Assembly (NCBI RefSeq): GCF_000167355.1
Contig: NZ_AAEW02000007.1
Span: 1-64,000 of the forward strand
Length of the DNA: 64,000 nt
Source: Desulfuromonas acetoxidans DSM 684
Lineage (GTDB): Bacteria > Desulfobacterota > Desulfuromonadia > Desulfuromonadales > Desulfuromonadaceae
Direction: 5' to 3'
The position numbers and the translations under genes are program-made. This document shows, piece after piece, positions 4,633-28,475 of this stretch. The notes beneath the pieces are model-generated. The model saw only the letters and a list, made by a program, of their open reading frames with translations, searched no databases and was not told the DNA's origin. How positions within the stretch are numbered: the first letter of the stretch is position 1; every line of letters starts with the position of its first letter.

Positions 4633-4633
4633 A

Positions 4634-6402: not shown

Positions 6403-6830
6403 TCCTGCTCCTCATCCGCCATAGGCAATTCATCCTGCTCGGGTACTTCGAGCAGTTGTTCCACTGTGATATTGAACAAGCCGGCGTAACACTGTCGATA
6501 ATAGGTGGACAGGTTGTCAAACACCTTGGGCTTCAGGTGGCGTCTTACCCGCCAGCGGGCAATGCCGGAATAACGTGACAACAGAGCGACATCCATCTGC
6601 GCACGGGTCATATAATAAGCCAGCGGACTCATCTCGCCCTTGGAAATCTGGGCGCGCACCAGTTCCAGTTCCGCCTGAATATCTTCCCACGCCAGACGAT
6701 TGGCACAATTGACCGGCTCCCAACCGGCACTGGGCGTCAGGCAATAGCGGCCCTGATCATTGAGGGCATAACTGACCACTTTTTTGTCATCCAGAACACC
6801 TTTGTCCTGGGGCACTTCCTTGTCTCGCAT
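6399..6830 (-). CDS. small protein with putative helix-turn-helix
   Basis: A 143-residue soluble protein that I do not recognise by name. Residues 75-101 (from TRAQMDVALLS to RRHLKP) followed by a helical segment ending in NITVEQLLEV look like a Cro/XRE-type helix-turn-helix. The last 20 residues are very acidic. It lies between a ketosynthase-like gene and the BtrH-like gene and overlaps the latter by four bases. If the fold is right it could be a local regulator, but a protein-protein adaptor for the neighbouring acyltransferase is equally possible. Confidence 0.6.
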   Translation of the reverse strand: MRDKEVPQDKGVLDDKKVVSYALNDQGRYCLTPSAGWEPVNCANRLAWEDIQAELELVRAQISKGEMSPLAYYMTRAQMDVALLSRYSGIARWRVRRHLKPKVFDNLSTYYRQCYAGLFNITVEQLLEVPEQDELPMADEEQE

Positions 6831-6835
6831 AACGT

Positions 6836-7921
6836 CTAACGTCCCTTCCCAATCCCCCGGGTCACCCGAATCGCACCAAACTGACCGTCTGCACTACACT
6901 TGACGCTGGTCACCTGACGGATCGGTGCGCACTCTTCCTCTCGGCTACACAGCGCATGGCATTGCTGGTCACGAACCATAAGCGCAGCGGCCACCAGATC
7001 AAAGGCCTGACCACAGGGCAAACTGCCGTAAACATGACTGCAACTGGTTTTCGGCGTACCGATACTCTGGCGGTACCAACTGGCACTATTGCGCTGACCA
7101 TCGGCACCGAGCAGCACCGGGGATCGCTGAATCAACGCATCGCCACCCGACTCGATATGACCGCCACAAAGAGCATCAATATAGCCATAGCGCGCTCTTT
7201 TCGGATCACGACTTAAGACCAGAAACGCTGCGCCCTCACCGGGGATCGCCGTCTGTTTATCAAAAGCAAACGGCTCAATGCGTTCAGGAACCGGCTCATC
7301 AGCAAAATAACGGCCATAACAATAGTTGAGCACGGCACAATGTTCATCAACACCGCCAACCAGCACCGTATCCACCCGGCCCTGTTGCAACCAGCATACA
7401 GCATTGTGCAACGCCGCCGTTACCGACATATCAAATTGGCTCAAGGTCAAATTCGGGCCGTGAATACCCAACTGCATCGACAGGTAGGCACCGGCCACAT
7501 TGTGCACCGAGTTTGAAAATGCCGTCGGCGAAGCGCAATGATCGCCATCCTCCAGCACTGAATCGAGAAACCCAAAGGTGGTGGCCGCAGCTCCGTAACC
7601 GCTGGCGACGATCACGCCAACCTTCTCCCGTTTCTCGGCATCAATTCCGGCATCGGACAACGCCATACAACCACCGAGCAACGCCAGGCGGGAATAATGA
7701 TCAAGGCGGCGCAGAGAACGCTTGGCAACAAATTCATCCAGGCCATCGGTTTTGGCGAGAAAAGCCGGGTAATAGGCCTGCCCATCGCCATGGCACTGGT
7801 CGAGCATCTGTGGTCGGTCTGTTTCCTGCTGAAGGGCGCGGATAAAGGCGTCTCCCCCCTGACCAAAACCTCCGACACAACCGACCCCTTGAATTGCAAC
7901 GGCTTGAGAAAGTAGATTCAT
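6836..7921 (-). CDS. ketosynthase-like protein lacking catalytic residues (chain-length-factor-like)
   Basis: About 361 residues with thiolase/ketosynthase fold signatures: ALSDAGI, the VGVIVASGYG strand, VDTVLVGGVDE and an IPGEGAAFLVL loop. Where an active ketosynthase has its Cys the sequence reads LSQFDMS. The C-terminal His regions are also lost: SHVYGSLPCGQAFD replaces the usual GH..GA loop. It is therefore probably a non-catalytic partner, like the chain-length factor of type II polyketide and aryl polyene systems. The ATG at 7921 follows a GGAGG box by 7-8 bases and shares one base with the stop of the complete ketosynthase just upstream, its likely partner. Confidence 0.8.
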   Translation of the reverse strand: MNLLSQAVAIQGVGCVGGFGQGGDAFIRALQQETDRPQMLDQCHGDGQAYYPAFLAKTDGLDEFVAKRSLRRLDHYSRLALLGGCMALSDAGIDAEKREKVGVIVASGYGAAATTFGFLDSVLEDGDHCASPTAFSNSVHNVAGAYLSMQLGIHGPNLTLSQFDMSVTAALHNAVCWLQQGRVDTVLVGGVDEHCAVLNYCYGRYFADEPVPERIEPFAFDKQTAIPGEGAAFLVLSRDPKRARYGYIDALCGGHIESGGDALIQRSPVLLGADGQRNSASWYRQSIGTPKTSCSHVYGSLPCGQAFDLVAAALMVRDQQCHALCSREEECAPIRQVTSVKCSADGQFGAIRVTRGIGKGR

Positions 7922-9108
7922 CACACCACCTCCCCGCGCTCAAACACCAGCACGGCATTGTTACCACCAAACGCCAGTGATTCAGACAGCGCCAACGAAC
8001 TATCAAACTCATGCACCTGGGTTACCGGCACTGTCGCCAACTCATCATCCATGGTCGTAAACCCGGCACTGGCGGGAATTTTTCGCCGCTGCAAGAAACC
8101 GAGGACAAAAGCCGCCTCAATCGCCCCGGCCGCGCCGAGGGTATGGCCGGTGTAGCCCTTGGTAGAATGAAACGGAAGTCCTTTGAGACAGTCACGGAGC
8201 ACCAGACTTTCCACCCGATCATTGTCTTTGGTTCCCGTACCGTGGGTATTGACAAACCCCAGTTGCTTCGGTTGCACGCGACTGACGCGCAATGCTTCGG
8301 CCAGCGCCTGCTTGAGGCCTCGCCCCTCCGGATGTGGTGCCGTCAGATGCCAGCCATCAGTACCGCTGCCATAACCGAGAATATAGCCCTGAGCCGGAAC
8401 CTGGCGATGGCGGGCACTGGCATCCGATTCGAGCACCAACACCCCGGCGCCTTCGCCCAAGTTCAAGCCACTGCGCTCGGCATCAAACGGACGACACAGC
8501 CTTGTCGAACTGATCTGCAACGAGGCGAACCCGTTATAGGTGGTACGACACAACTCATCCGCACCGCCAGCCAACACCACATCGCACAATCCGCACTGAA
8601 TCCACGCCGAAGCCAGTCCGATGGCATCCGTGCCCGAGGAACAGGCATTGACAATGGTCTGAGTCGGACCGTTAAAACCGAAATGACGACTGATCACCGC
8701 AGCCGGATTGCTGCCGAGAAAACGATTGATCGGTGTCATCTCCGGCGACGCTCCATCACGGTAACCGGCATAAAACGGCTCGTTGTTCATCGCACTGCCC
8801 ACCGTGGTGCCCATACACACCCCGACCCGCAGACCACGTAATGCCTCCAGTGACCACCCCGATTGGGTCACGGCCTGCCCGGCGGCAGCCAGACCAAGGC
8901 GGCTGGTGCGCAACATGTCACGCTGACTAACCTGCTCAAAGTCGTCAGCGATGGAGAACACCGGATAGACATCAGCGTGCGTGGTCGTAAATCGTAAAGG
9001 ATCACCACCATGGCGCTCGCCGCCCAGCATGGACGCCATCGCTTGTTCCAAGGTGTTGCCCGCTGCACTCAGGCAGCCGATTCCGGTCACCGCAATGCGA
9101 TTTGCCAT
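7921..9108 (-). CDS. beta-ketoacyl-ACP synthase (FabF-like), active
   Basis: A 395-residue condensing enzyme with a complete catalytic set: Cys156 in NACSSG, His289 in NTHGTGT, Lys317 and His322 in the KGYTGHTLGAAGA motif, and a C-terminal FGGNN loop. It would elongate an ACP-bound chain with malonyl-ACP. The next gene encodes a ketosynthase-like protein without the Cys and its start shares a base with this stop, so a KS/chain-length-factor heterodimer is likely. The gene upstream encodes a carrier protein four bases away. A CAGGAG box precedes the ATG. Confidence 0.92.
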   Translation of the reverse strand: MANRIAVTGIGCLSAAGNTLEQAMASMLGGERHGGDPLRFTTTHADVYPVFSIADDFEQVSQRDMLRTSRLGLAAAGQAVTQSGWSLEALRGLRVGVCMGTTVGSAMNNEPFYAGYRDGASPEMTPINRFLGSNPAAVISRHFGFNGPTQTIVNACSSGTDAIGLASAWIQCGLCDVVLAGGADELCRTTYNGFASLQISSTRLCRPFDAERSGLNLGEGAGVLVLESDASARHRQVPAQGYILGYGSGTDGWHLTAPHPEGRGLKQALAEALRVSRVQPKQLGFVNTHGTGTKDNDRVESLVLRDCLKGLPFHSTKGYTGHTLGAAGAIEAAFVLGFLQRRKIPASAGFTTMDDELATVPVTQVHEFDSSLALSESLAFGGNNAVLVFERGEVV

Positions 9109-9112
9109 TTAT

Positions 9113-9364
9113 TTACTCCTGATTGGCTTCGATGAATTCAGCCAAGCTGTTGATGGATTGAAGTGCCGGACGGCCCTCTTCCATATCCTTAATCTCGACA
9201 CCAAAATGCTTCTGAACCAGCACCACCAGTTCAACGGCATCCAGCGAATCCAGACCGAGACCTTCACCGAACAACGGCTCATCATCGGCAATCTCTTGCG
9301 GCGTGATATCCTCAAGATTAAGATCTTCAACCAGAATCTTTTTAAGTTTTTCTTTGGTTGTCAT
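9113..9364 (-). CDS. acyl carrier protein (second of the locus)
   Basis: An 83-residue acyl carrier protein with an intact attachment motif GLGLDSLDAVE and an acidic helix II following it. A clear CAGGAG box precedes the ATG. It sits between the LpxL-like acyltransferase and the KS/KS-like pair and is separated from the ketosynthase by four bases, so it is the natural carrier for that condensing pair. It shares the FGEGLGLDSLD pattern typical of carriers in aryl polyene and flexirubin loci, more divergent from AcpP than a duplicated housekeeping carrier would be. Confidence 0.93.
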   Translation of the reverse strand: MTTKEKLKKILVEDLNLEDITPQEIADDEPLFGEGLGLDSLDAVELVVLVQKHFGVEIKDMEEGRPALQSINSLAEFIEANQE

Positions 9365-9402: not shown

Positions 9403-10335
9403 TTAATTGTCATCCCACATATCAAAGAAATTGTAAAACTGGTACGGATTTTCCCGGCAATAACCGGCCAGGGCATCCGCATACTGTTGCACATAAGGTC
9501 GATAAGCCTCGGCTTTGCGCCCCAACCCCTGCGGCACGCGTATCTCGTCGATCAACTCCATTTCATAGCGATCACCGGCGCTTTTACGCGTCATCATCAC
9601 CACAATTGGTGCCCCAGTGGCTGACGCCAACTGAAACGAACTGAACGGCAGCGCCACGACATCACCGAGAAACTCCACCGTCACCACATTACGCTCATGG
9701 GGCGGCAGCCGGTCGCCCATCACCGCCAGAATCATACCCTGTTTCAACACCCCCATCATTTCCAGAGTACCACCAAGAAAACCACGTGGATCAATGGTGC
9801 GATAGGGGCATTCCTGTTCGGCATATTCGTAATAGTGCCGCTCCAGACTGCCGTCATCCTGATGCATCACCATATGCACCGGCTCTTCGAGAAAGTTCAG
9901 CGCCGACATGGCTACCTGCCAGCAGCCGACATGGGACATCATCAGGATCATCCCCTGACGACGATTGCGGATCTCCAGCAACTGTTCCCGTCCATGCAGA
10001 GCCACCTTGAGCCGGTCAGGTCCGAGCATACCGACCACGGCCCGATCGACCAGCACCTTGCCGAAATCGAGAACCATCCGGTAGCTGTGCCACCACAGGC
10101 CATCTTCACCGGCCTCCACAAAGCGCCGCTTGAGGTACGGTCGACAACTGCGCCGCACCTGGGGGCGAAACAGAATATAAAAGGCGACGACAAAATACAA
10201 CAGTGCGTATGCCGCCCGCCGTCCGCCACTGCGAATCATCACATAAAACGCCTGATAACCCAGCTTTGAGCCAAGGGGGCGTTGCACCTGTTCGCTGGTT
10301 GATTCTGCCAATTTTTCGCTTGTCTGTCCGGTCAT
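9403..10335 (-). CDS. LpxL/HtrB-type lysophospholipid acyltransferase
   Basis: A protein of about 310 residues of the lauroyl/myristoyl acyltransferase family, with an N-terminal hydrophobic helix (YALLYFVVAFYILF). The family block HX4D appears in degenerate form as SHVGCWQ, and the second block as GDRLPPHE with the following FLGDVVALP stretch. Family members acylate a hydroxyl on lipid A or related glycolipids; here the likely role is attaching the chain to a membrane acceptor. The frame opens further upstream, but the ATG at 10335 overlaps the stop of the glycosyltransferase gene as ATGA, so that start is preferred. In many aryl polyene loci this function is fused to or next to a GT2 domain. 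Confidence 0.82.
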   Translation of the reverse strand: MTGQTSEKLAESTSEQVQRPLGSKLGYQAFYVMIRSGGRRAAYALLYFVVAFYILFRPQVRRSCRPYLKRRFVEAGEDGLWWHSYRMVLDFGKVLVDRAVVGMLGPDRLKVALHGREQLLEIRNRRQGMILMMSHVGCWQVAMSALNFLEEPVHMVMHQDDGSLERHYYEYAEQECPYRTIDPRGFLGGTLEMMGVLKQGMILAVMGDRLPPHERNVVTVEFLGDVVALPFSSFQLASATGAPIVVMMTRKSAGDRYEMELIDEIRVPQGLGRKAEAYRPYVQQYADALAGYCRENPYQFYNFFDMWDDN

Positions 10336-11531
10336 GATTCCCCGTGCTCCGAACACGTCTCTTTAACGGTTTTATCCATATCGCCTACCAGGCCCACGGC
10401 AATGACATATACCAGTCCACCCACCACAACGGCCAGCAGCGGTCCCACCAGCAAAGAGCCGAGAAACCACTCATAGACCCGCTCCAGTGCCTGAGCACCG
10501 AGAGTCTCCAACGAGATGTCCGTCAGCCAGCGACCATGGCGCAGATAGAAGCCCACCTCGATACACAGCGCCGGCACCAGCGGCGGCATGCACAGATTCC
10601 CCGCCGCAACGGCCAGATAGCGGTTGAGGCCGAGAAAGCCGGCAACAAACAGCGTCACCACCGTGTGGCAGGCGATCAATGGCAATGCGCCGAGCAACAC
10701 TCCCACGGCCATGGCCAGTCCGATTCTGGCCGGGGACACATTCTGCGCCAGCAACTGACGCAATGAACTCACAGGCCGTCGCCAACTGAACGGCGGTTGT
10801 TGTCGCTTGACCAGCCGTTTATGCGGCCAGGGCGCAATGGAACGCAGGCACAGCCGGGTATTGAGCCACGACAGCCGCAGGTTGTCCGTCAATTTGTTAA
10901 AATGAGACACCCGCGCCTTTCCCGGCGCATAATAGACCTGAATCGGCACGTCGCGCAGCGGCACACCGGCCCAATTGGCCTTGACCAGTACCTCCACTTC
11001 AAACGAGTAGTGGCAATCACTGAAGCTCAAATGATCAAACACCGCCAGCGGATAGGCTCGATAGCCGCTCTGCACATCGCCCAATGTCTGACCGGTCTGT
11101 ACCCTGAGCCAGAAATTGGAAAACCGTCGGCCAAACCGTGAGCTGCCCGGAATATCCGCTGCGGTAAAATCACGCAACCCGACATGAATCGCCAGCGGCT
11201 CCTGTTCAATCGCGGCAAAAAACCGCGGCAGATCTTCGGGAAAATGTTGCCCGTCAGCGTCGAGGATAATCAGATGCCTCATTCCCTGCTGTTTGGCATA
11301 CTCCGCCGCCGTCAGAATCGCCGCTCCTTTGCCGCAATTGTGGTTGTGTCGCAACACCGCAACGGGCAAATCGTCAATCAACGACGCCACAGCATTCTCA
11401 CTGCCGTCATCCACCACCAATACCTGATCGTGTTGCTGCAGACAGCGCTCCACCACGTCACGCAAGGTTGCCGCGTGGTTGTAGACCGGAATCGCCACCA
11501 GGATTTGAGAACGGTCCGTCACTCCCGTCAC
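10332..11531 (-). CDS. GT2 glycosyltransferase fused to a DUF2062 membrane domain
   Basis: N-terminal GT-A domain: VAIPVYNHAATL, VVDDGS, CGKGAA, the DXD-like DADGQH and a GYRAYP segment identify a dolichol-phosphate-mannose-synthase-like family 2 transferase (residues about 1-210). The C-terminal ~150 residues carry three to four hydrophobic helices with the DUF2062 pattern (GVLLGALPLI, GNLCMPPLVPALC). It probably transfers a sugar or sugar-phosphate to a lipid at the inner membrane. The frame is open to 11603. I place the start at the GTG at 11531 because a GAGGGG box precedes it and it begins just after the upstream stop; an ATG at 11546 is the alternative. Confidence 0.85.
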   Translation of the reverse strand: MTGVTDRSQILVAIPVYNHAATLRDVVERCLQQHDQVLVVDDGSENAVASLIDDLPVAVLRHNHNCGKGAAILTAAEYAKQQGMRHLIILDADGQHFPEDLPRFFAAIEQEPLAIHVGLRDFTAADIPGSSRFGRRFSNFWLRVQTGQTLGDVQSGYRAYPLAVFDHLSFSDCHYSFEVEVLVKANWAGVPLRDVPIQVYYAPGKARVSHFNKLTDNLRLSWLNTRLCLRSIAPWPHKRLVKRQQPPFSWRRPVSSLRQLLAQNVSPARIGLAMAVGVLLGALPLIACHTVVTLFVAGFLGLNRYLAVAAGNLCMPPLVPALCIEVGFYLRHGRWLTDISLETLGAQALERVYEWFLGSLLVGPLLAVVVGGLVYVIAVGLVGDMDKTVKETCSEHGES

Positions 11532-11535
11532 CTTA

Positions 11536-12993
11536 TCACCCCTCATCGCCCAGCCGTTTCCCTTTGCGGGCAAACGACAGGAATCCGCCGAGATTGCGGA
11601 CAAAGCGCCCCCAACTGTGCGGTGACTTCCACAACATGGTCACATAGCCCCAGATCACATCATTGCGGCGAAAGTGTTTCTTGTAAAAGGTCAGAAACAG
11701 CTCTTCGAGCTTTTCCTCACTCATGCCATGAGGAATAAACTGGAAACGCATGCAATCCATTTTGGCCCAGTCTTCGTCAAACACACCCAACTCATGGATG
11801 TTTTCGTAGAGCGGCGAGCCCGGAAACGGCGTAAACTTGGCAACATTGAGATCATCAATGGGCAGTTTGAGAATGTAATCGATACTGCGTCGCACGCTCT
11901 GTTCACTCTCACCGGGCAGGCCGACCATCATCAACCCTTTAACGCGAATACCATGTTTCTTGATCAGACGGATGGTGTTGGCCAACATGTCAAGATCGGG
12001 ATTCTGACGGTGCTGGGCCAGCAACTCGGGATCACCGGTCTCAATGCCGAGGCTCATCATCCAGCAGCCCGCCCGTTTCATCAACGCAATCAGTTCATCA
12101 TCGACATGCTCAGCACGGATGGCGCAGTTAAACGTCATGCCGAGGGGCTGGTCAATCATCCGCTGACAGAAATCGATCACCCGCTGGCGGTGAAACGTGA
12201 ACTGATCGTCATAAAAGTTGATATGACGGATATCGTAACGCTCGCGCAGATGCTGCAGATGACGGTACAGATAATCTGCAGAGTTGTAACGAAACGTGCG
12301 CCGGAACACCGAGCGGTCACAGTAACTACACGCGTACGGACACCCACGGCTGGAAATACAGCTGGTGTTAGGCGCTTTGGGATAATTGAAAATCGGCAAC
12401 TGATACGCCTCGGGAAAACCCTCCAGCTTATCGTAAGCCGGAAACGGCAGTGCATCCAGATCGAGTGCCGGTTCACGGTAACCATTGAACACCACTTCGC
12501 CATCATCAGTGCGACACACCACGCCTGAAAGGGCTGTATGATCATCGTTGGTGGCCGACGCCAGTTGATAGAGGGTCTCCTCCCCTTCGCCGACCACCAG
12601 GGCATCCAGCTGCGGATAATCACTGAGTAACGTCTCTTTTAACGCCGACACATGGGCACCACCGGCTGCCACTTTTAGCCCGGGGCAGGCATCACGCGCC
12701 AGTTCGGCAATGCGCACCCCATCGAGAAAACTGGAGGTAGTGCAACTCAGCCCCAGCCACGCCGGACGGTGCTGACGCACGTAATCACAGATCGCCTGAT
12801 CTGAGTCGGGCCGCGCGTAACAGTCGATGATATCAACCTGCAGCCCCCGCTCCATCAGGTAGGCAGCGATACTGGCCAGACCCAAAGGCGGCATGATATT
12901 GGCCAGCCGCGATACATCGTGTCCGGCCTGGCCACTGGCGTAACCAAGGGGATGTACCAGCAGAATCCGTTGTCGATCCAGATCAGCGTGCAC
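11536..12993 (-). CDS. B12-binding domain radical SAM enzyme (third of three)
   Basis: A protein of about 485 residues. The N-terminal Rossmann-like domain has the cobalamin-binding-type PPLGLASIAAYL motif and the VVGEGEETL loop. The radical SAM cluster motif CPYACSYC is central, followed by a TIM-barrel with the GIETGDPELL and VGLPGES segments. Such enzymes methylate or rearrange unactivated carbons and need anaerobic conditions, fitting the host type. The start is set at the GTG at 12993, preceded by AGGAG at five bases, although the frame opens at 13020; this gives an 11-base overlap with the preceding radical SAM gene. The substrate is unknown. Confidence 0.88.
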   Translation of the reverse strand: MHADLDRQRILLVHPLGYASGQAGHDVSRLANIMPPLGLASIAAYLMERGLQVDIIDCYARPDSDQAICDYVRQHRPAWLGLSCTTSSFLDGVRIAELARDACPGLKVAAGGAHVSALKETLLSDYPQLDALVVGEGEETLYQLASATNDDHTALSGVVCRTDDGEVVFNGYREPALDLDALPFPAYDKLEGFPEAYQLPIFNYPKAPNTSCISSRGCPYACSYCDRSVFRRTFRYNSADYLYRHLQHLRERYDIRHINFYDDQFTFHRQRVIDFCQRMIDQPLGMTFNCAIRAEHVDDELIALMKRAGCWMMSLGIETGDPELLAQHRQNPDLDMLANTIRLIKKHGIRVKGLMMVGLPGESEQSVRRSIDYILKLPIDDLNVAKFTPFPGSPLYENIHELGVFDEDWAKMDCMRFQFIPHGMSEEKLEELFLTFYKKHFRRNDVIWGYVTMLWKSPHSWGRFVRNLGGFLSFARKGKRLGDEG

Positions 12994-14356
12994 GGCGTCT
13001 CCTGCGGCCTGGAGTGTCAAAACGGATCAGATGATCCCACAAAATTCCCTTAAAGCCGAAATTGTTCATTACCGCCATCTTCTCCTGGCCATCTGACGGT
13101 GGGAAGATGCGATCACGGCGGCCATTGAACGAATCAAGAATCATCTGGTTCATCGGCTCCACCTGGATGTGCGGTGAAAAATAGTAGATCGGCTTGATCA
13201 ACGACGCGCCCGGCTCTATCACATTATCGGCAATGGCTCGCTCCAATAGGCGCGACTTAGGCAGAATCCGGATGCCGGAAAAAGCAAACACCACACAGTG
13301 CTCCAATTTGGCAATATTAGACAGCCCTTCAGCCACCGTCTCCGGCGTCTCATTCGGCCCGCCGAACATGATGAAATGGGCACAGGGCACCTGCTCGGCA
13401 ATGGCCGCCTGCTGACAGGCAAGCACTTCATCAAAGCCAAACCCTTTATCAAGTCCGGCCAAAGTGGTGTCGCTGGCGGCATCGGTTCCCATCTCCATGG
13501 CATACAGCCCGGCACGTTTGAGCAATTGCAACACCTCACGGTTCAACCCCTGAGGTCGGAAGAAAGCACACCAGCGGATATCGAGTTCACGGCGCACCAT
13601 CTCTTCGGCCAACTCGAGATATAAACCCTGTGGATCGTTAAAGATCGAATCGGTAAAAAACACCGTACTGGTGGCGTGGTCGCGTTTAAGACGGGCCAAA
13701 TCCTCGACCACCGCATCCACCGGCCGTGGCCGGAAACGGTGGCCTTCCAAACCGGGATAGGTGCAATAGACACATTTAAACGGGCAACCACGTTTGGTCT
13801 GTAAATTGATCAAACCACTGTGCTGCTGGTAATAGTCGACAAATTCCGGCACCAGTAACGGTTGACCCATCTCATGGCCCTGCAACGGTTGACTGCCACA
13901 GGTGATTGCCTCAACCTTTTCACCACGGCTGATCCGGTCGATCAACGTTGGTACGGCTTGCTCCCCCTCGCCCACCACACCATAATCGGCACCGAGGTAG
14001 CTGAGAATCTCTTCAGGGAGAATGGAAAATGCCGGGCCACCAACGACAACCGGAGCCGAGCTGATGGTACGAATCGTTTCGATCAACCGTTTGGCATCCG
14101 TGAGATACCAGTTTTTATCCGAGCTGAATGAGTCGACATTGTCGATGTTGCGCAACGACAGGCAGACCACATCCGCATTAAACGCTTCCAGATCTCCCTG
14201 CAGACGACGACAGTCCTGGTCATACACCAGAAAATCAAACTGCCGCACCTCGTGTCCCGCACCATCCAGAGCACCGGCGACAATAGCCATGCCCAGCGGA
14301 TACACCGGATACGGGTCCGTGGAGATGTTGGAGGAGATCAGAAAAACACGACTCAT
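12983..14356 (-). CDS. B12-binding domain radical SAM enzyme (second of three)
   Basis: A 457-residue protein with an N-terminal cobalamin-type domain (YPLGMAIVAGAL, VVGGPAFS, VVGEGEQAV) and the radical SAM motif CPFKCVYC at residues 191-198, followed by a barrel with a GTDAASD segment. It resembles the lipid-biosynthesis B12/radical SAM family known from candidate ladderane loci; that assignment is from memory of the family, not from a search. The ATG overlaps the stop of the first radical SAM gene as ATGA. The C-terminus ends in a run of Arg residues. The reaction is unknown; methylation, C-C bond formation or cyclisation are all possible for this superfamily. Confidence 0.87.
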   Translation of the reverse strand: MSRVFLISSNISTDPYPVYPLGMAIVAGALDGAGHEVRQFDFLVYDQDCRRLQGDLEAFNADVVCLSLRNIDNVDSFSSDKNWYLTDAKRLIETIRTISSAPVVVGGPAFSILPEEILSYLGADYGVVGEGEQAVPTLIDRISRGEKVEAITCGSQPLQGHEMGQPLLVPEFVDYYQQHSGLINLQTKRGCPFKCVYCTYPGLEGHRFRPRPVDAVVEDLARLKRDHATSTVFFTDSIFNDPQGLYLELAEEMVRRELDIRWCAFFRPQGLNREVLQLLKRAGLYAMEMGTDAASDTTLAGLDKGFGFDEVLACQQAAIAEQVPCAHFIMFGGPNETPETVAEGLSNIAKLEHCVVFAFSGIRILPKSRLLERAIADNVIEPGASLIKPIYYFSPHIQVEPMNQMILDSFNGRRDRIFPPSDGQEKMAVMNNFGFKGILWDHLIRFDTPGRRRRRAR

Positions 14357-15618
14357 GACGCGGTCCTGTTCAAACTAAACTGACGTTTGCGCTTAGTATC
14401 GTAACGGCGATAGGTACCGTCATCCATTTCACGAGCAATAACCTGTTTGAACAACTTCCCCATTTTCAACTGGTAGCCACCATCGGCGTTGAAGGTATCC
14501 CAGGCGTAATAGAACAGATCCTGCAGGGTGTCCACAGACATCTGCTTCGGTTGAAACACCACCTTATCCGCCGTGTAATCCCCCCAGCCGTTATTGAGCA
14601 GACGGCCCTCTTTTTCCAACTGTGCACGGATCGGCGAATGAGGGAACGGCGTAAGAATGGTGAACTCGGCGACATCCAGCTCCACTTCGATGAGAAAATC
14701 GACCAAACGCCGGATATCGTCAGCACTTTGATCATCAGTACCGAGAATGATGGTGCCTTCGACGCCGATGCCGAAATCCTTGAGCCGTTTGATGCGGTTA
14801 CGAATAACATCCGACGTGTCAAAAACCGCCTGATACACATACCAGGCTCCGGCATCAGCAGCCGCCTTAAGGACGTCGTCGTCATCAAGCAACGGATGAG
14901 ACACCCACTTTTTCTTGAGCGGCTTCATGGCCTCAAAAAGTTCCAGCAGCCACTGTTTGTCCTGAGCCATGGAATTATCGACAATAAACATGCGGTTATT
15001 GGGAATCGCCTCCATCTCGGCGATAACCTTTTCAATGGGCCGGGGGCGGAATTCATGACCACCAAGATAACCGGTACAACAGGGAAAACATTTGAACTTA
15101 CAACCGCGCGACGCATGCACCAGATCGAGCATCTGAACGCCACGATAGTTGTAACAGTCACGATCAAGAATCTCACGCCGTGCCGTCCCCACCAGTTCGA
15201 TGGGCGGATGTTGCTGCAGGTAGTTGTACACCGGCTTGAGTTCACCACGCTCAAAGTCGCGAATCACCTGCTCGGTACGCCCTTCCGCTTCACCGATAAA
15301 CACACAGTCGGCATGTTGCTGCACCTCCTCGGCGTGCAACATGGTGGCAATGCCGCCGAACATGACGGTTCTTCCACGCTTGCGATACTCGGCAGCAATC
15401 TCAAAGGCACGCGGCAACTGACAGGTGAGCATGACGGACAGTGCCACAAGATCAGCCGGTTCATCAAAATCCAGGGTCTGGACGTTTTCATCGGTAAAAC
15501 TCACTTCAACGTCTTCAGGAATGGTCGCGGCAAAGACCACCGGTCCATGAGGCGGCAGGTGAAACTCGGTTTGCCGTTCCAGCTTCGCCCAGCGTGGATA
15601 AACCAACTTCATTTTCAT
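14353..15618 (-). CDS. B12-binding domain radical SAM enzyme (first of three)
   Basis: A 421-residue radical SAM protein with an atypical, shorter N-terminal domain (RTVMFGGIATM, VFIGEAEGRT) and the cluster motif CKFKCFPC at residues 173-180, directly followed by another Cys (181). The remainder is a barrel containing ILGTDDQ and a TPFPHSPI segment. A GGGAGAA box six bases upstream fixes the ATG at 15618. It is the first gene of three consecutive radical SAM genes and is preceded by a 118-base gap, one of the larger gaps in the locus, where an internal promoter could sit (a TTGACG element is present but I see no convincing -10). Confidence 0.86.
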   Translation of the reverse strand: MKMKLVYPRWAKLERQTEFHLPPHGPVVFAATIPEDVEVSFTDENVQTLDFDEPADLVALSVMLTCQLPRAFEIAAEYRKRGRTVMFGGIATMLHAEEVQQHADCVFIGEAEGRTEQVIRDFERGELKPVYNYLQQHPPIELVGTARREILDRDCYNYRGVQMLDLVHASRGCKFKCFPCCTGYLGGHEFRPRPIEKVIAEMEAIPNNRMFIVDNSMAQDKQWLLELFEAMKPLKKKWVSHPLLDDDDVLKAAADAGAWYVYQAVFDTSDVIRNRIKRLKDFGIGVEGTIILGTDDQSADDIRRLVDFLIEVELDVAEFTILTPFPHSPIRAQLEKEGRLLNNGWGDYTADKVVFQPKQMSVDTLQDLFYYAWDTFNADGGYQLKMGKLFKQVIAREMDDGTYRRYDTKRKRQFSLNRTAS

Positions 15619-15736: not shown

Positions 15737-16420
15737 TCACGACTTTAACCGTGCGACCAACGCCATGGCACAGGCAATGGGCTGTCCGGACAGGGACAAG
15801 GCACCAGACGCCTCACGTGTCAGGGTCAATTGTGCAGAAGGTGCCGATTTATCCACCACCAGAAACAGGCTACCAGGTGCCTGCAACACGCCGTAGCTAT
15901 CCAGATCACAAAACCCGACCACCACGGCTTCGGCCTCACCGTTATCCAGCAGATCAAGCGCATTGTCCACCACGGCCAAACCGTCTGGACGGCAACTGTT
16001 AACCACCTCACAGCATCCGGTTAATCCAAAACGCAAAGCCGCTTCACCAAGAAAGGTGTTGGACAAGGTATAGGCAAACAGTTGCGGACTGGCCAGAGCA
16101 CCATGCTCGGGAATCACCGTGGTAAAATAGTCGCAATCGGTCTCCAGACAGCCGCTGTAGGTTTCCGCCAAAATGGCCACCGGTCGTTTCTCCTGCCAGT
16201 GGTCCATACCGGCATCCTGCAGGGCCAGAGTAATGCCGGCCAGACCCAGCCGCGAAAACGGGTCCATCCGTCCAAAACGGCGGTCCGGTTTATCAAACAG
16301 ATCCTGGCGCTGCAGTTGCGGTAACGTACCGGGACCAAATCCGGAAAAACCACTGCTGAAACCGCGACCGAAACCATAACTGCTCACCCAGCCGAATCCG
16401 GCAATACGATAGGGGTTCAT
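15737..16420 (-). CDS. half-length ketosynthase-like protein (chain-length-factor-like)
   Basis: 227 residues corresponding only to the N-terminal half of a ketosynthase. The ALQDAGM helix, a VAILAETYSG strand, and NSC at the position of the active Cys are visible, but the C-terminal half with both catalytic His residues is absent. N-terminal-only ketosynthase-like proteins are regular members of aryl polyene loci, where one such partner acts as a chain-length factor, so this is more likely a functional short family member than a truncated gene. Its ATG overlaps the stop of the complete ketosynthase upstream as ATGA, making those two a likely heterodimer. An unusual Gly/Ser/Phe-rich segment lies at residues 15-32. 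Confidence 0.78.
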   Translation of the reverse strand: MNPYRIAGFGWVSSYGFGRGFSSGFSGFGPGTLPQLQRQDLFDKPDRRFGRMDPFSRLGLAGITLALQDAGMDHWQEKRPVAILAETYSGCLETDCDYFTTVIPEHGALASPQLFAYTLSNTFLGEAALRFGLTGCCEVVNSCRPDGLAVVDNALDLLDNGEAEAVVVGFCDLDSYGVLQAPGSLFLVVDKSAPSAQLTLTREASGALSLSGQPIACAMALVARLKS

Positions 16421-17553
16421 CCGTCCCTCCGTTTCAGCAACAGCGCGGCATTGACACCGCCAAAACCGGAATTGGTCGACAACAACACATCGCCACGGAA
16501 TGGTTGCGGCACATTCTTCACCCGTTCACCGGCCAGCGGTTCAGCCTGTTCCAGGCCACAGGTGGGCGGTAAACTGCGTCGGCGCAATGCAGGCAACGCC
16601 AGAGCCACTTCCAGACCACCGGCGGCCCCCAGGGTATGACCGAGGGCTCCTTTAATGGAATTGATCGGCAGATGCCGGTCACCAAACAACTGATTAAAAG
16701 CGGTCAACTCCATCATATCGTTGTACACCGTGCCGGTACCGTGGGCGCTGATGGCCGCCACATCATCCGCAGCCAGTCCGGCGCACGTTAGCGCCTGTTC
16801 CACCGCAAGGATCAGTCCACAGCCGTCACGGGCCGGAGCGGTAATATGGTTGGCATCATTGGCAATGCCCCAGCCACACAAGTGGATATCCGTGGGCAGA
16901 CCATGTCGGAGGGCAGTATCCTCATCCATCAACACCACGGCCGCCGCTCCTTCTCCCAGGGTCAAACCACTGCGTTCAACGTCAAACGGTCGACTCGGCA
17001 AACGCGACAACGCCTGTAACGCCGAAAACCCGGACAAGACAAACTCACTGACCAGGTCGGCACACACCACCACAACACAGTTGGCCCGGCCGTGGGCAAT
17101 CAACGCAGCGCCACGGGCGATGGCCTGAGTGGATGACGCACAGGCGGCATTGACATTCTGCCCCGGATCAGCGCTGCCCAGCTTATCCGCCACCCAGCGG
17201 GTCATGGTCACCGGCAAACTGGCTTGCAGTTGCGCGGCTTCGCGGCCATCGCGCTGGCCCTGCTCCAACAGGTCAATCGCCCCTTTGGTGGTTGCGGTAA
17301 ACAGACGGGTCTCTTGCGGCAACTGCGGCAGTTGAGCAAGCACCTGATCGAGCAGCGGATACAGCCGTGAGCCAGTGGCATCGGCGGCCAGGTCCGGGAC
17401 ACAGGCTGCCACCTTGGCGAGATAATGGTCGGTATTAAACCGGTCCACCTCGGCGATTGCCGAGCGCCCGTCGTTCAAAGCCTCCCACGTGGCATCAAGG
17501 GACGTTCCCAAGCCGGTCACGGCGCTGCCGTGGGTAATCACAACGTTTTTCAC
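16417..17553 (-). CDS. beta-ketoacyl-ACP synthase, active
   Basis: A 378-residue condensing enzyme with Cys138 in NAACASS, His271 in SAHGTGT, Lys301 and His306 in KGALGHTLGAAGG and a C-terminal GFGGVNA loop. It is shorter than FabF in the N-terminal region, as is common for the ketosynthases of aryl polyene-type loci. It overlaps the thioesterase gene on one side and the half-length ketosynthase-like gene on the other, each by four bases. With that partner it would form the second KS/chain-length-factor-like pair of this locus, probably responsible for polyene elongation. Confidence 0.91.
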   Translation of the reverse strand: MKNVVITHGSAVTGLGTSLDATWEALNDGRSAIAEVDRFNTDHYLAKVAACVPDLAADATGSRLYPLLDQVLAQLPQLPQETRLFTATTKGAIDLLEQGQRDGREAAQLQASLPVTMTRWVADKLGSADPGQNVNAACASSTQAIARGAALIAHGRANCVVVVCADLVSEFVLSGFSALQALSRLPSRPFDVERSGLTLGEGAAAVVLMDEDTALRHGLPTDIHLCGWGIANDANHITAPARDGCGLILAVEQALTCAGLAADDVAAISAHGTGTVYNDMMELTAFNQLFGDRHLPINSIKGALGHTLGAAGGLEVALALPALRRRSLPPTCGLEQAEPLAGERVKNVPQPFRGDVLLSTNSGFGGVNAALLLKRRDG

Positions 17554-18011
17554 AGGGTTCCCTCTTTCCAGCGACGTAAAAAATCCTGATAAAACGGTGG
17601 TGGCACCACCAGAATATTATGATCGGTATCCAACAACATCTGGACACTGTAACCACGTGTGACCACCTGTTGTTGTTCATTGCGTAGAATAAATTCAAAG
17701 TTCAACCGCGCCGCTTCCGTCCAGTGCCACAAACCTTCGATGGTAAACCACTCCTCAAAACGCAACGGCTGAACATAATCAATGTGCAATTTCTTAATTG
17801 GTGCGACAACGCCTTGAGCATAGAAATCCATATAGCCCAAACCGTAATGCGCTCCGAGAGCAACGCGAGCATCTTCAAAATAGCTCGGATATCGGCCATG
17901 CCAGACAATGCCTACCGCATCCACTTCTTCAAAACGGACGTGACGTTTAACAGTCAACGTCAGCGGAGCTGGTGCCTGTTCGATTACTGGAAACCACCCT
18001 TTTTTTGCCAT
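17550..18011 (-). CDS. 4-hydroxybenzoyl-CoA-type thioesterase
   Basis: A 153-residue single hotdog protein of the YbgC/4HBT family. The catalytic-loop pattern VDAVGIVWHGRY with Asp and His, followed by YFEDARVAL and YGLGYMDF, is typical. Family members hydrolyse acyl-CoA or acyl-ACP thioesters; the aryl polyene thioesterases of this size edit or release chains from the carrier. It overlaps the ketosynthase start by four bases and follows the FabZ-like gene by 13 bases, consistent with one coupled set of polyene-chain enzymes. Confidence 0.88.
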   Translation of the reverse strand: MAKKGWFPVIEQAPAPLTLTVKRHVRFEEVDAVGIVWHGRYPSYFEDARVALGAHYGLGYMDFYAQGVVAPIKKLHIDYVQPLRFEEWFTIEGLWHWTEAARLNFEFILRNEQQQVVTRGYSVQMLLDTDHNILVVPPPFYQDFLRRWKEGTL

Positions 18012-18024: not shown

Positions 18025-18393
18025 CTACGCCAGCGTCAGCCAGAACGTCGATGCCAGTTCATCATCAACCAGCAACGCCGCATCAATCACCGACTTGCCA
18101 CGCACCGTTTTGGCCGTACACCGCACGACAATGCGCTCCTGTGGACGCAACTGCCGATGGAACTTGGCCCGTTGCATGGCCTGCGGCGATTGGGAGACGA
18201 GACCAGCCTGTTCGGCAACAATCTGCGCCATCAGGACCTGGATCACTCCCGGCACAATCGGATAGCCGGGAAAGTGGCCGCTAAAACCGATAAACGCCTC
18301 ACTGAGAACAAAGCTTTGCTCCGCCGTGTCCTGTTCGATGCGCAGGTCAGTGCAGCTTGAATGGAGTATTTCATTGCGTACCGGACTGGTCAT
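18025..18393 (-). CDS. FabZ-like 3-hydroxyacyl-ACP dehydratase
   Basis: A protein of about 122 residues with a single hotdog domain and the dehydratase signature GHFPGYPIVPGV, including the catalytic His, followed by the QVLMAQIVAEQ helix. It would remove water from 3-hydroxyacyl-ACP, giving the trans double bonds of a polyene (ApeI-like role). The frame opens at 18417, but the ATG at 18393 overlaps the stop of the lipoprotein gene as ATGA and is preferred. A second, less canonical hotdog protein is encoded at 22071-22511, so the two may form a hetero-dehydratase as reported for aryl polyene systems. Confidence 0.85.
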   Translation of the reverse strand: MTSPVRNEILHSSCTDLRIEQDTAEQSFVLSEAFIGFSGHFPGYPIVPGVIQVLMAQIVAEQAGLVSQSPQAMQRAKFHRQLRPQERIVVRCTAKTVRGKSVIDAALLVDDELASTFWLTLA

Positions 18394-19055
18394 AGCTTTC
18401 GCACCGCCTCCATCCACAGGGTCAAACGGTAGTTTTTATCGTCAAGCACAATCATCGTCGGTGTCCGCAACATTGCGGAATCAGAGTCATTGAAATAATC
18501 CACTTGCCAGTTTTCATCGTCTGTCGCAACACGGGTGGTCTGCAAACGGATCGGATCACCGCCAAACGTAAACTCTGCTCCGCTTTGTACATTAGAAACC
18601 AGTCGATACGGCTGACCGTCACAACGCGGCAGCAAGCGATCGCCTGCCTGGGGCTGCGGTGTTAAGAAAATCCGCCGGACACTTTGGGCCACGACCTTGG
18701 GCAATTGCGGATGTTCTTCCAACAACGGCAAAAGATAGTTCAGGGACATATCCTCGCCGGTCACGGTCACATCAAACAATTTCACTCCCATGCTGTCCAT
18801 GGCCACCAAACGCGCCTCATGCGCAGCACAGTCGATACGCAACACACCCTGCAATGGGATCTCCCGCCAAGACAGTTTCAGCACACCACTTTGCCGACAC
18901 AAATAACGCTGCGTGCCGCTCAACCAATGCTGAGTCACCAGTTGTAACGGACTTAGGCCTTCACTGACCGCTCCCGAATGGGGAGGTAACGTGGGACGAC
19001 CGCAGGCGGTCAGAACCACAGCGAGCAACAGAGCAATCAGGGCGTAACGCTTCAT
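18390..19055 (-). CDS. DUF3261 family lipoprotein
   Basis: About 221 residues beginning with a lipoprotein signal: MKRYALIALLL, hydrophobic stretch, then a lipobox-like LTAC with Cys at about residue 18. The mature part is mainly predicted beta structure and matches the DUF3261 proteins encoded next to MMPL exporters and LolA-like proteins in aryl polyene and flexirubin loci. It is probably an outer-membrane or periplasmic accessory for moving the lipid. The ATG at 19055 has a GGGAGGA box inside the end of the exporter gene and overlaps its stop as ATGA. Confidence 0.8.
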   Translation of the reverse strand: MKRYALIALLLAVVLTACGRPTLPPHSGAVSEGLSPLQLVTQHWLSGTQRYLCRQSGVLKLSWREIPLQGVLRIDCAAHEARLVAMDSMGVKLFDVTVTGEDMSLNYLLPLLEEHPQLPKVVAQSVRRIFLTPQPQAGDRLLPRCDGQPYRLVSNVQSGAEFTFGGDPIRLQTTRVATDDENWQVDYFNDSDSAMLRTPTMIVLDDKNYRLTLWMEAVRKL

Positions 19056-21436
19056 GACGATCCTCCCTTGGGCGAAGTTGAGCACCAGTGGGCATAAACC
19101 GTCGGCACCACCAGTAAAGCGGTCAGCACCGCAGCACTGATGCCGAACAAAACAGTCAGCCCCATGGAGGACATGGCCGGATGACGCGCCAACGCCAGTG
19201 AACCGAACCCCGCCAGTGTGGTCAGAGCCGACACCAGCACCGCCTTGTCGGTATGCATTCCACTTCCATACTGACAGCGATTGACCATAAAGATCCCGTA
19301 ATCCACACCCAATCCGATAATCAGGATTGCAGCAATCACATTGAACAGGTTAAACGCCAACCCCAGCCAGCCCATAACACCAAACATCACCACCAAGCCA
19401 CCGAGCACCGGCAACAAAGCCAACACCATTCGACTCAGTCGGCGATACCACACCGCCAGCACCACCACAACAACAGCCATCGCCCGCAAGATAAAGGTGA
19501 TAAAGTCATGACCGACTTGAGCACTGAGTTGCTGACGAAACTGACTCTGGTCAACAACAACCACACCGGGAATCTGTTCCAGACGGCTGTCCAGTTCCAG
19601 AGCACGTTCCTCTCCAGCCTTACCGGTGTCGAGCAATGAGACCACGGCCGTGCCCTGCGGAAGATCAGTGACCAGCAAACCCTCAATTACCGTCCCCAAA
19701 CCGGCCTGTTGCCAGAACGGCAAATTGAGGAGTGGCGACGGTTGCGACAACGCGGTGTCAAACGATTCAAACGCCGTGGCTGAAAATCCCTGTTGCTGCG
19801 CCAGTTCGAAAAATCGCTGCCATTGCGGCTGATGCTGCTGCCAGAAATCCTGCCAGCGAAACAGGCTCTGCTGTTGGTGTTGCTCTGTCGGCAGAAGTGT
19901 TGCCAGGGACACCAGAGAGGCGCTGCTCTGTTGTGACGCAATCAGCTCGGCGACACGTGCATTCACAGCCAGAGCATCGTGTTCAGTGTTCCCCTGAGAA
20001 AAGATCAGGGTACGGCTTCGCACATCGCCCCACACCTGTTTCATCAACGCTTCACCATGGCTTAACGCAGCAGTCTGAACACTCAAACGGCGCAGATCAC
20101 CATCAAAGGTCAGTCGACTGCAGCCGAACGCGGCGACCATAACAACCACCAGCCAGATCCACGCGGCACGAGGATGATGGCGGACGGCCTCATGACGGGA
20201 TCGGGCCATGGCCCCCGAAGCAATACCGCACAGATGCGGCATGACCACCAGTGCCAGCAGTAACGCTGCAGCAATGGCTGTCATAGAAAACACCGCCAGT
20301 TGTCGCTGCCCCGGCAGAGTCGAATACAACAGGACGCTGAACGCCATAAAGCTGGTCAGGGCACTGCCCACCAGCGGACGTGTCAACCGCTGCAACGCCC
20401 CGAGAGGCGCACCACCACTGCGCAGAGCAAAAAACACATGCAGGGTGAAATCAACAGTGATCCCCAACAGCACAGCACCAAAGCCCAGGGTGATCCCGGA
20501 CAGTTGTGGAAACCAGACCGTTACCATAAAGGCGGCGATTCCCAACACCGATGCCGGTAGAAAAAACACCCACAGCGCACGCACATTACGCAACAGCACC
20601 ATGAAAATGAGCAAAATCGCCACACTGGCCACACTGAACACCACACGGATATCTCGCTGAACAGTGTCGGCATTGGCCACGGTATAGCGGTGTCCGCTGA
20701 CCACGGTAGCCGTCACTTCTGGCGGCAAGGTCTCCAAAATTGCAGTATCGATCTCCGAAAGCAGGCGGCGACTTGCCGTCACATCGCCAATCTCCACCGT
20801 AGTATCGACCATCAGCAGACGATGACGACCGTCACGACTGACAAAGGCGCCATGTTCGCCGCCGGCACCGGCAAACGGATTCAAATCACGCAGATGGTCA
20901 GCGCTTAATTGCCACAGTTGCAATGGATCGCGCTGGAGTTGCCCCTTGGTCCACCACCCCTGCGGCGTCATGAGCTGACTCTTGATCTGAACAAGTCGCT
21001 CCGTCATGATCGCATCATCAGCGAGACGCTTGGCGATCACTTGCAGATCCTCTTCCGTCACCAGTCGCGGCAACGCCTCACTCAAATGACTGAGCAGTGT
21101 GGCCTGCTGTTGGATCGGTGGACCGTCCGTGACCGTTGTCTGCAGTCTCTCTTCCAGGGCCACGGCCAATGCTTTACCACCCGCCTTCAGGATCGCTTGC
21201 TGTTGCGGATCGCTCACCTCAAGATCGATAAACACCTTGCGGGCAAAAGGGGCACGCTGCAGCCAGGTAAAATCATCGCGCACCGTGCTACCGGTTGCAT
21301 CCGGCAACATGGCATCGATGGTTTCCTGTGGCGTAAGACGCATCAACAGGGCAAAGCTGACCACGACAAACAGGCCGTACACCACAAACAGCAACCGTCG
21401 GTGGCCCTGAAAATAGTTAAAAAGTACCGAGATCAT
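19052..21436 (-). CDS. MMPL/RND-family lipid exporter
   Basis: A 794-residue membrane protein with two repeats of one helix, a ~200-residue periplasmic loop and five helices each, the usual RND/MMPL plan. The segments GAVLLGITVDFTLHVFF and IIGLGVDYGIFMV carry the conserved Asp residues used for proton coupling. Such proteins in aryl polyene, flexirubin and hopanoid loci move lipid products out of the inner membrane. It is followed by a coupled lipoprotein gene and preceded by a LolA-like gene, giving a three-part route from inner membrane through periplasm to outer membrane. Confidence 0.9.
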   Translation of the reverse strand: MISVLFNYFQGHRRLLFVVYGLFVVVSFALLMRLTPQETIDAMLPDATGSTVRDDFTWLQRAPFARKVFIDLEVSDPQQQAILKAGGKALAVALEERLQTTVTDGPPIQQQATLLSHLSEALPRLVTEEDLQVIAKRLADDAIMTERLVQIKSQLMTPQGWWTKGQLQRDPLQLWQLSADHLRDLNPFAGAGGEHGAFVSRDGRHRLLMVDTTVEIGDVTASRRLLSEIDTAILETLPPEVTATVVSGHRYTVANADTVQRDIRVVFSVASVAILLIFMVLLRNVRALWVFFLPASVLGIAAFMVTVWFPQLSGITLGFGAVLLGITVDFTLHVFFALRSGGAPLGALQRLTRPLVGSALTSFMAFSVLLYSTLPGQRQLAVFSMTAIAAALLLALVVMPHLCGIASGAMARSRHEAVRHHPRAAWIWLVVVMVAAFGCSRLTFDGDLRRLSVQTAALSHGEALMKQVWGDVRSRTLIFSQGNTEHDALAVNARVAELIASQQSSASLVSLATLLPTEQHQQQSLFRWQDFWQQHQPQWQRFFELAQQQGFSATAFESFDTALSQPSPLLNLPFWQQAGLGTVIEGLLVTDLPQGTAVVSLLDTGKAGEERALELDSRLEQIPGVVVVDQSQFRQQLSAQVGHDFITFILRAMAVVVVVLAVWYRRLSRMVLALLPVLGGLVVMFGVMGWLGLAFNLFNVIAAILIIGLGVDYGIFMVNRCQYGSGMHTDKAVLVSALTTLAGFGSLALARHPAMSSMGLTVLFGISAAVLTALLVVPTVYAHWCSTSPKGGSS

Positions 21437-22511: not shown

Positions 22512-22530
22512 CTGTTTTTCTCTCTGGTGA

Positions 22531-26340: not shown

Positions 26341-26368
26341 CAATAACTGCGGTCCAACACAAGAAGCT

Positions 26369-28469: not shown

Positions 28470-28475
28470 GAACAA

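Follow-up and report, generated by a model that had tools for sequence, protein, structure and literature searches.

What do three tandem radical S-adenosylmethionine (rSAM) enzymes of the cobalamin (B12) type do in a gene cluster that otherwise resembles those for aryl polyenes (APEs)? The question is raised by the first 64,000 nucleotides of contig NZ_AAEW02000007.1 of Desulfuromonas acetoxidans DSM 684 (positions 1–64000; genome of 3.82 Mb), hereafter the window, in which the genes rSAM1, rSAM2 and rSAM3 follow one another inside a long minus-strand cluster. We give a probability of about 0.5 to the reading that this locus makes an aryl-capped polyene lipid, tailored by three dedicated, coupled rSAM enzymes. 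The three genes are as follows:

14353..15618, minus strand: rSAM1, 421 amino acids (aa), ATG start; short B12-type N-terminal domain, predicted AprD4-like fold
12983..14356, minus strand: rSAM2, 457 aa, ATG start; TIGR04072 (rSAM_ladder_B12); TsrM-like, R69 present, equivalent of Glu273 absent
11536..12993, minus strand: rSAM3, 485 aa, GTG start; HpnJ/BchE-like, below every listed NCBIfam cut-off

Three overlapping genes encode distinct B12-type rSAM proteins

The genes overlap by 4 bases (ATGA) at the rSAM1/rSAM2 junction and by 11 bases at the rSAM2/rSAM3 junction, exactly as stated in the original prediction, which had been made from the letters of the window and had described three overlapping genes in tandem. 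The 11-base overlap applies to the GTG start of rSAM3 at 12993, which has AGGAG just 5′ of it and was preferred to the TTG at 13020 given by a mechanical list of open reading frames. A further overlap of 11 bases joins rSAM3 to the following glycosyltransferase gene if the latter starts with the ATG at 11546. Overlaps recur in related loci, at 35 of 43 rSAM1–rSAM2 and 19 of 30 rSAM2–rSAM3 junctions, with the starts picked by script.

A CxxxCxxC motif is present in all three proteins, as predicted (C173/C177/C180 in rSAM1, C191/C195/C198 in rSAM2 and C218/C222/C225 in rSAM3). It was invariant in the 46 rSAM1, 49 rSAM2 and 33 rSAM3 sequences that were aligned (window included; complete, non-identical proteins above identity floors that we set). 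The curated cut-off of the Pfam B12-binding model (PF02310) was exceeded by each protein, which agrees with the cobalamin-type N-terminal domains claimed for them, although rSAM1 passed only just (32.5 versus 32.1 bits). The Pfam Radical_SAM model was above its cut-off on rSAM2 and rSAM3, and gave 20 bits on rSAM1 (cut-off 29.5). Pairwise identity within the trio was 23–26% over 137–291 residues. The three enzymes are thus clearly different, as had been proposed, and a recent tandem duplication was rejected because of this low mutual identity.

The original prediction had named tRNA methylthiotransferases and hopanoid methylases as families whose profile matches would speak against it, and both identities were rejected. 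The methylthiotransferase model TIGR00089 gave 31 bits on rSAM3 (cut-off 251) and no listed match to rSAM1 or rSAM2 at E ≤ 0.001. The hopanoid C-3 methylase model HpnR gave 33.1, 71.5 and 80.9 bits on rSAM1, rSAM2 and rSAM3, respectively, far below its cut-off of 650.

The trio is conserved within the order and its loci differ in the putative starter gene

We searched 136 genomes of the same order with one profile per rSAM protein, counting matches at E ≤ 1e-60 (rSAM1) or E ≤ 1e-100 (rSAM2 and rSAM3) and excluding two genomes with only 346–362-bit rSAM3 matches. rSAM1 was found in 51 genomes, rSAM2 in 48 and rSAM3 in 51; 55 had at least one of them. The trio co-occurs beyond chance, because all three were present in 46 of the 136 genomes. 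In one of the 51 rSAM1 genomes (G118), the gene was represented by no more than a paralogue-like match of 228 bits and a contig-end fragment of 217 bits. rSAM1 lay immediately upstream of rSAM2 in all 46 genomes with both genes, and rSAM3 immediately downstream of rSAM2 in 45 of 48; two of the three exceptions had the genes on separate contigs, and in the third (G025) rSAM3 lay on the opposite strand at a distance of ~18 kb. The module was usually present in a single copy per genome. TIGR04072 alone exceeded its cut-off in 29 of 58 genomes (source included) and in none of 14 control genomes. Among the 30 rSAM2 loci listed, the closest named ones belonged to Desulfuromonas metagenome-assembled genomes (MAGs), with 90% and 75% identity, and none of the 30 was from an anammox genome.

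Loci with a similar order of ketosynthase (KS), glycosyltransferase, acyltransferase and acyl carrier protein (ACP) genes were found in Desulfuromonadales, Syntrophus, Hydrogenedentes, Nitrospirota and Desulfobulbales. The expected co-occurrence with KS genes was observed: 48 of 52 distinct related loci had a KS match nearby, the other four being contigs of 4.5–7.6 kb, and 43 had a match to the truncated KS of the window. No KS match was detected in six regions (12–20 kb) around relatives below the TIGR04072 cut-off (L097–L102, 297–325 bits), where L099 had a weak rSAM1-like match and L102 an ABC ATPase match. rSAM1 was present in 47 of the 52 loci. Four of the absences are contig ends and the fifth, in a Desulfobulbaceae locus (BRH_c16a, L035), is real within the stretch. 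There (L035:8300-12500), an ammonia-lyase gene stands beside the rSAM2 homologue and a glycosyltransferase gene, and both rSAM1 and rSAM3 are absent within 21 kb.

Thirty-two distinct loci extended at least 9 kb upstream of the module. Of these, 19 had only an aromatic amino acid ammonia-lyase gene and seven only an rSAM gene of the SPASM type; none had both and six had neither (the SPASM match of L023 is cut by the locus end, and the rest may be split clusters). The rSAM1–rSAM2 pair is kept in ammonia-lyase loci and in SPASM loci. In most loci showing the lyase or SPASM gene, it is preceded by an AMP-dependent ligase gene, and in Desulfuromonadales and several Nitrospirota loci it is followed by a FabZ-like gene, which in L026, L028 and L034 was elsewhere or not seen. 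Within the stretches covered, rSAM3 accompanied 18 of 20 ammonia-lyase loci and was found on the same strand in one of nine SPASM loci. Because the pair persists where the SPASM enzyme replaces the ammonia-lyase, rSAM1 and rSAM2 probably act on the chain and not on the aromatic head, and we infer that each of the two exchanged enzymes serves a different starter. The swap thereby predicts the step served by each enzyme.

SPASM genes following the AMP ligase gene are seen at L034:6647-7696 (Desulfobulbaceae) and L028:5092-6150 (a delta MAG). In two Nitrospirota loci (L031:15164-16927 and L018:4967-6733), the SPASM rSAM is fused to an N-terminal alpha/beta hydrolase and adjoins a UDP-glycosyltransferase-like gene. 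Polysaccharide deacetylase genes occur at L024:18204-19145 and L031:16983-17915, also in Nitrospirota loci.

rSAM2 is a TIGR04072 member with a TsrM-like model

Against TIGR04072, rSAM2 scored 699.3 bits over 443 of 443 positions (cut-off 360) and is a member of this family; rSAM1 (43.9 bits) and rSAM3 (98.3 bits) remained below the cut-off. The ladderane-type B12-rSAM model, against which the original prediction had suggested a search, is thus passed by rSAM2 and not by the other two. In the AlphaFold2 model of rSAM2 (predicted local distance difference test, pLDDT, 90.1), the best fold match was the tryptophan 2-C-methyltransferase TsrM (Z 36.5, 441 residues, 2.9 Å), followed by AprD4 (Z 28.6), OxsB (28.5) and MgmA (28.2). 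MiaB and RimO also aligned well to the rSAM1 and rSAM2 models (Z 21–24); this reflects a shared fold and was not used as evidence. Both models are ligand-free, and cobalamin binding is a prediction only.

According to the available part of the published account of TsrM (PMC8992657), its Arg69 lies under the cobalt and its Glu273 blocks the cluster by ligating the unique iron. In a profile alignment to TsrM, on which rSAM2 residues were numbered by hand, Arg69 corresponds to R69 of rSAM2 and is Arg in 49 of 49 sequences. In contrast, Glu273 corresponds to I238, a position that is occupied by Ile, Val, Thr or Phe in all 49 sequences and by Glu in none, and the TsrM model TIGR04428 reached 135.1 bits on rSAM2 (cut-off 500). 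Because the residue that blocks the cluster in TsrM is not kept, rSAM2 should have a cobalamin site like that of TsrM, leave the unique iron open and cleave SAM, and so be radical-competent.

rSAM1 resembles AprD4 and may not use cobalamin

The nearest fold to the rSAM1 model (pLDDT 87.3) was the radical SAM diol dehydratase AprD4 (Z 30.9, 371 residues, 2.6 Å), ahead of MgmA by more than 5 Z units (Z 25.2), and AprD4 was also the top solved-structure match by sequence. The two differ in that their identity is 19% and the AprD4 model NF033070 gave 28.6 bits on rSAM1 (cut-off 500). AprD4 is not known to require cobalamin. Since it is the nearest fold, rSAM1 may be independent of cobalamin as well, and its use of the cofactor is uncertain. 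We regard it as possible, if somewhat short of an even chance, that rSAM1 works without cobalamin, with a relic B12 domain as in AprD4, and uses radical chemistry to dehydrate or desaturate the chain or to carry out an elimination on it. Against this, all 25 rSAM1 sequences examined, that of the window among them, matched the B12-binding domain at E ≤ 0.001, G88-G89 is invariant in the alignment, and the loop after strand 3 is conserved. The original interpretation of the trio is supported in part. The predicted structure is TsrM-like for rSAM2 and AprD4-like for rSAM1, whose lower-face residue has no firm assignment.

Homologues of rSAM1 were also found outside the order. At E ≤ 1e-60, its profile matched 40 of 198 genomes sampled from Nitrospirota, the phylum to which the Nitrospirae MAG with locus L022 belongs; in 14 of the 40, the score exceeded 500 bits. 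The remaining matches scored 200–310 bits, often several per genome, which indicates a wider family. Plasmid relatives had 25–31% identity, and every plasmid record matched at less than 60%. One of them, the Citrobacter portucalensis plasmid NZ_CP134684.1, has five rSAM1-like places, the best of which (31% identity) is annotated as radical SAM proteins.

rSAM3 is nearest to models of several chemistries

The highest NCBIfam scores of rSAM3 were for HpnJ (TIGR03471; 177.2 bits, cut-off 577.6), BchE (TIGR02026; 169.6 bits, cut-off 481.35) and the Sden_1168 P-methyltransferase model (172 bits, also far below the cut-off). Profile matches to solved structures were AprD4, TokK, MgmA and OxsB, and S87 of rSAM3 aligned to the lower-face position of TokK (Trp76), a low-confidence assignment. 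In the available part of a source on cobalamin-dependent rSAM enzymes (PMC13142503), HpnJ, BchE and OxsB are non-methylases; for rSAM3, ring or bond formation may therefore be considered as open as methylation.

Gene content of the locus

The genes around the trio are given below. They follow one another 5′ to 3′ in the order listed, with a 2.2-kb gap upstream of the ammonia-lyase gene and rSAM1–rSAM3 between the truncated KS and the glycosyltransferase genes. KS residues were read by eye; the motif pattern search returned the Lys region only.

32689..33426, minus strand: FabG-type ketoreductase
31415..32650, minus strand: KS
29949..31481, minus strand: CrtI/phytoene-desaturase-like flavoprotein
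28723..29958, minus strand: KS
28476..28736, minus strand: ACP
27681..28475, minus strand: PlsC-type acyltransferase
26369..27753, minus strand: AMP-dependent ligase, split over two frames
22531..24117, minus strand: aromatic amino acid (His/Tyr/Phe-type) ammonia-lyase (Pfam, 553.8 bits; FlxA TAL model 470, cut-off 700)
22071..22547, minus strand: FabZ/FabA-like hot-dog protein, no Pfam match; 30.6% identity to the E. coli APE dehydratase
21448..22086, minus strand: LolA-like carrier (LolA2 model below cut-off)
19052..21436, minus strand: MMPL exporter
18390..19085, minus strand: putative lipoprotein without a family match, based on signal and LTAC in the sequence
18025..18417, minus strand: FabA-like dehydratase
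17550..18011, minus strand: 4HBT thioesterase
16417..17553, minus strand: KS; near full-length AmcF match below cut-off
15737..16420, minus strand: KS truncated to its N-terminal half; lies upstream of rSAM1
10332..11546, minus strand: glycosyltransferase family 2 (GT2) with DUF2062 (Pfam); 35.6% identity to its GT2 counterpart in the E. coli APE locus
9403..10356, minus strand: LpxL-type acyltransferase (Pfam and APE-locus match)
9113..9364, minus strand: ACP, 83 aa, GLDSLD motif read from the translation; 42% identity to the APE-locus phosphopantetheine-binding protein
7921..9108, minus strand: KS with Cys/His/His (Pfam; residues by eye)
6836..7924, minus strand: KS resembling a chain length factor (CLF), Phe at the catalytic Cys position (Pfam; residue by eye)
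6399..6830, minus strand: DarG-family protein (DarG_fam 138.2 bits, cut-off 70; flexirubin_DarG 135.1, cut-off 170)
5380..6402, minus strand: DarH, BtrH-type acyltransferase (460.9 bits, cut-off 300)
3325..5383, minus strand: ABC transporter (ATPase 4634-5383, permease 3325-4632)
3037..3303, minus strand: ACP

In total, the locus encodes five KS/CLF-like proteins, one truncated KS and three ACPs. It contains the type II polyketide synthase gene set of APE and flexirubin loci (KS with CLF-like partner, ketoreductase, dehydratase, ACP, thioesterase, MMPL, LolA, glycosyltransferase and acyltransferase), as defined by a list based on the APE locus of E. coli CFT073. The locus is thus APE/flexirubin-like, and its product is predicted from gene families.

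Fifteen of 30 window query proteins (the split AMP ligase entered as two) matched the CFT073 locus at E ≤ 0.01, none of them an rSAM protein. The matches comprised KS, ketoreductase, dehydratase, thioesterase, MMPL, ACP, glycosyltransferase and acyltransferase; a single CFT073 gene was matched by two neighbours in the window, the glycosyltransferase and the acyltransferase. Annotations of the CFT073 locus also include LolA-family, CLF and acyl-CoA synthetase genes, but at the same threshold the window LolA, AMP ligase and ammonia-lyase had no match there. The two loci differ in that CFT073 has an annotated methyltransferase and no annotated radical SAM gene, whereas the window cluster has the rSAM trio, and protein-family scans found no methyltransferase family in it (immediately upstream of the cluster, 33601-34338 encodes an RNA methylase of the SpoU type). 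The rSAM1, rSAM2 and rSAM3 profiles also gave no match in a six-frame translation of the CFT073 locus. In this single control, the view that APE loci normally have no radical SAM genes is supported by annotation and profiles alike. Likeness to flexirubin/dialkylresorcinol clusters is seen in DarG_fam and DarH, both above cut-off; the flexirubin_DarG, FlxA TAL and LolA2 models, in contrast, remained below theirs.

Proposed function of the trio and alternatives

In the proposed pathway, assembled from gene families, the ammonia-lyase would provide an arylacrylate starter, which the AMP ligase would load onto an ACP. KS/CLF pairs, the ketoreductase and the dehydratases would build a conjugated chain, the glycosyltransferase and acyltransferases would join it to a lipid, and MMPL and LolA would transport it outward. 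The rSAM enzymes would be dedicated tailoring enzymes, co-produced by translational coupling and each responsible for a separate step. The core would be rSAM1 and rSAM2, a pair whose substrate would be the chain or a carrier-bound intermediate of it. rSAM2 would hold base-off cobalamin over Arg69, generate a 5′-deoxyadenosyl radical and use it either to methylate an unactivated carbon or to make a carbon bond there. rSAM3 would be accessory; since it mostly accompanies the ammonia-lyase, it could plausibly act close to the aryl end. For rSAM2, we modestly favour C-methylation over other chemistries. For the trio as a whole, gene context and conservation are observed; the substrates and the reactions, which may be C-methylation, ring closure or other chemistry, we infer.

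Several points weigh against this proposal. The conservation counts take no account of shared ancestry, and the Fisher values overstate the evidence. A TsrM-like fold does not demonstrate any particular reaction of rSAM2; the nearest fold of rSAM1 is a dehydratase; and the best models for rSAM3, none of which reached its cut-off, are those of the non-methylases HpnJ and BchE and of a P-methyltransferase. Given the wider family in Nitrospirota and the plasmid relatives, the rSAM1 fold alone gives no tie to this pathway. The ammonia-lyase family is the sole pointer to an aromatic head, and the gene is below every listed NCBIfam cut-off. No product is known for the D. acetoxidans locus or, in the literature covered, for that of any relative.

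The frame of the cluster has been known since 2009. In the part of Rattray 2009 available to us (PMC2649909), which is the basis of the statements on its clusters here, clusters of the type II fatty acid synthesis kind with SAM radical genes are described in Kuenenia, Desulfotalea and also Geobacter and Pelobacter. Like the window, the Kuenenia and Desulfotalea clusters have several KS genes, of which some lack the catalytic residues, as well as radical SAM genes, a phytoene-desaturase-like gene, a phenylacetyl-CoA-ligase-like gene, a glycosyltransferase and a membrane protein. The Phe of the CLF-like KS (6836-7924) agrees with 'Phe163' of a Geobacter sulfurreducens KS in the same paper. The window differs in having the ammonia-lyase where Desulfobulbales and Nitrospirota loci carry the SPASM rSAM, and three B12-type rSAM genes in a row. 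A reviewer comment printed in the paper lists the shared radical SAM pairs Kuste3343/DP1855 and Kuste3342/DP1853. Kuste3343 may be of the SPASM type, as it is numbered beside the ligase Kuste3344 and both L034 and L028 have a SPASM gene after the AMP ligase gene. No publication on the rSAM trio was found among the papers listed in literature searches; the present analysis adds the ammonia-lyase-bearing version with three enzymes, the starter-gene swap and the TsrM-like, probably radical-competent rSAM2.

The suggested link between the trio and ladderanes stems from the family name and from the literature on anammox clusters. It leads to the alternative that carbon rings, of a cyclobutane-like or another type, are formed along the polyene by rSAM1, rSAM2 or both, as has been proposed, though not proven, for anammox ladderanes. 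NCBI named the rSAM2 family (TIGR04072) after ladderane, Rattray 2009 tied similar clusters to it, and two Nitrospirota loci have a polysaccharide deacetylase gene, a type of gene that the paper also describes for the Kuenenia cluster (Kuste3351). Several non-methylase cobalamin-dependent rSAM enzymes form rings or rearrange their substrates, and such enzymes have been proposed for ladderanes (PMC13142503, in the part available). However, Desulfotalea has a syntenic cluster and, in that part of Rattray 2009, no detectable ladderanes, but acyclic C31:8 and C31:9 hydrocarbons. Furthermore, the Kuenenia candidate genes expressed in E. coli are described, in the portion of the source at hand, as giving no new fatty acids or products, with the Kuste3342 and Kuste3343 proteins undetected. 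'Ladderane' clusters annotated in Desulfobacterota are described in a partly available source as having no known function. We consider ring closure doubtful, and continue to prefer tailoring of an aryl polyene chain with C-methylation by rSAM2.

A role of the trio in making or modifying the starter unit, and not the chain, would suit its place in an ammonia-lyase operon and the frequent company of rSAM3 and the lyase. This appears unlikely, as rSAM1 and rSAM2 are retained in loci without ammonia-lyase.

Similarly improbable, in our estimate, is the broader proposition that rSAM1–rSAM2 is a portable anaerobic polyene-chain module common to anammox ladderane loci and the APE-type loci of Desulfuromonadales and Nitrospirota, so that ring-forming chemistry suspected for ladderanes (or multiple methylation) takes place on aryl polyenes. 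If true, this would imply an unknown class of aryl lipids in culturable bacteria. The biosynthesis of ladderanes has long been a puzzle, and no anammox bacterium is available in pure culture (PMC2649909 and PMC9821293, both in the parts available). The conserved rSAM1–rSAM2(–rSAM3) module occurs amid familiar families in relatives of culturable anaerobes, which would open this family of radical enzymes to functional tests.

Polyunsaturated hydrocarbons of the C31:9 kind are now attributed to other genes (Pfa/Ole). With a KS, CLF and dehydratase set in the window that could already give a conjugated chain, it is very unlikely that the trio serves anaerobic polyunsaturated hydrocarbon or fatty acid synthesis, the alternative of Rattray 2009, in spite of the C31:9 hydrocarbons in Desulfotalea (PMC2649909) and the CrtI-like gene in the window locus.

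Other features of the locus

Membership in the AmcF–AmcG pair (KS and cyclization factor) was rejected: the KS at 16417-17553 scored 224.3 bits to AmcF (cut-off 325) and the CLF-like KS at 6836-7924 27.2 bits to AmcG (cut-off 80). The truncated KS (15737-16420) recalls the small 'cyclization factor' AmcG, yet has no listed match to the AmcG model at E ≤ 0.001. A scan for regulatory signals gave 10 promoter-like sites (shuffled sequences 8.4, standard deviation 3.1) and 28 terminator-like sites (19.7, standard deviation 4.6), and neither count was used as evidence. The two halves of the AMP ligase are in one frame in all 10 related loci that hold both, so the window copy is a pseudogene or contains a sequencing error. 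The gap at 24118-26368 has no long open reading frames and consists of three tandem units of ~610–620 bases. From 136 initial candidates, a 211-base piece of the gap had at least 40 scored matches across the genome, with 74–100% identity, which indicates a high-copy interspersed repeat.

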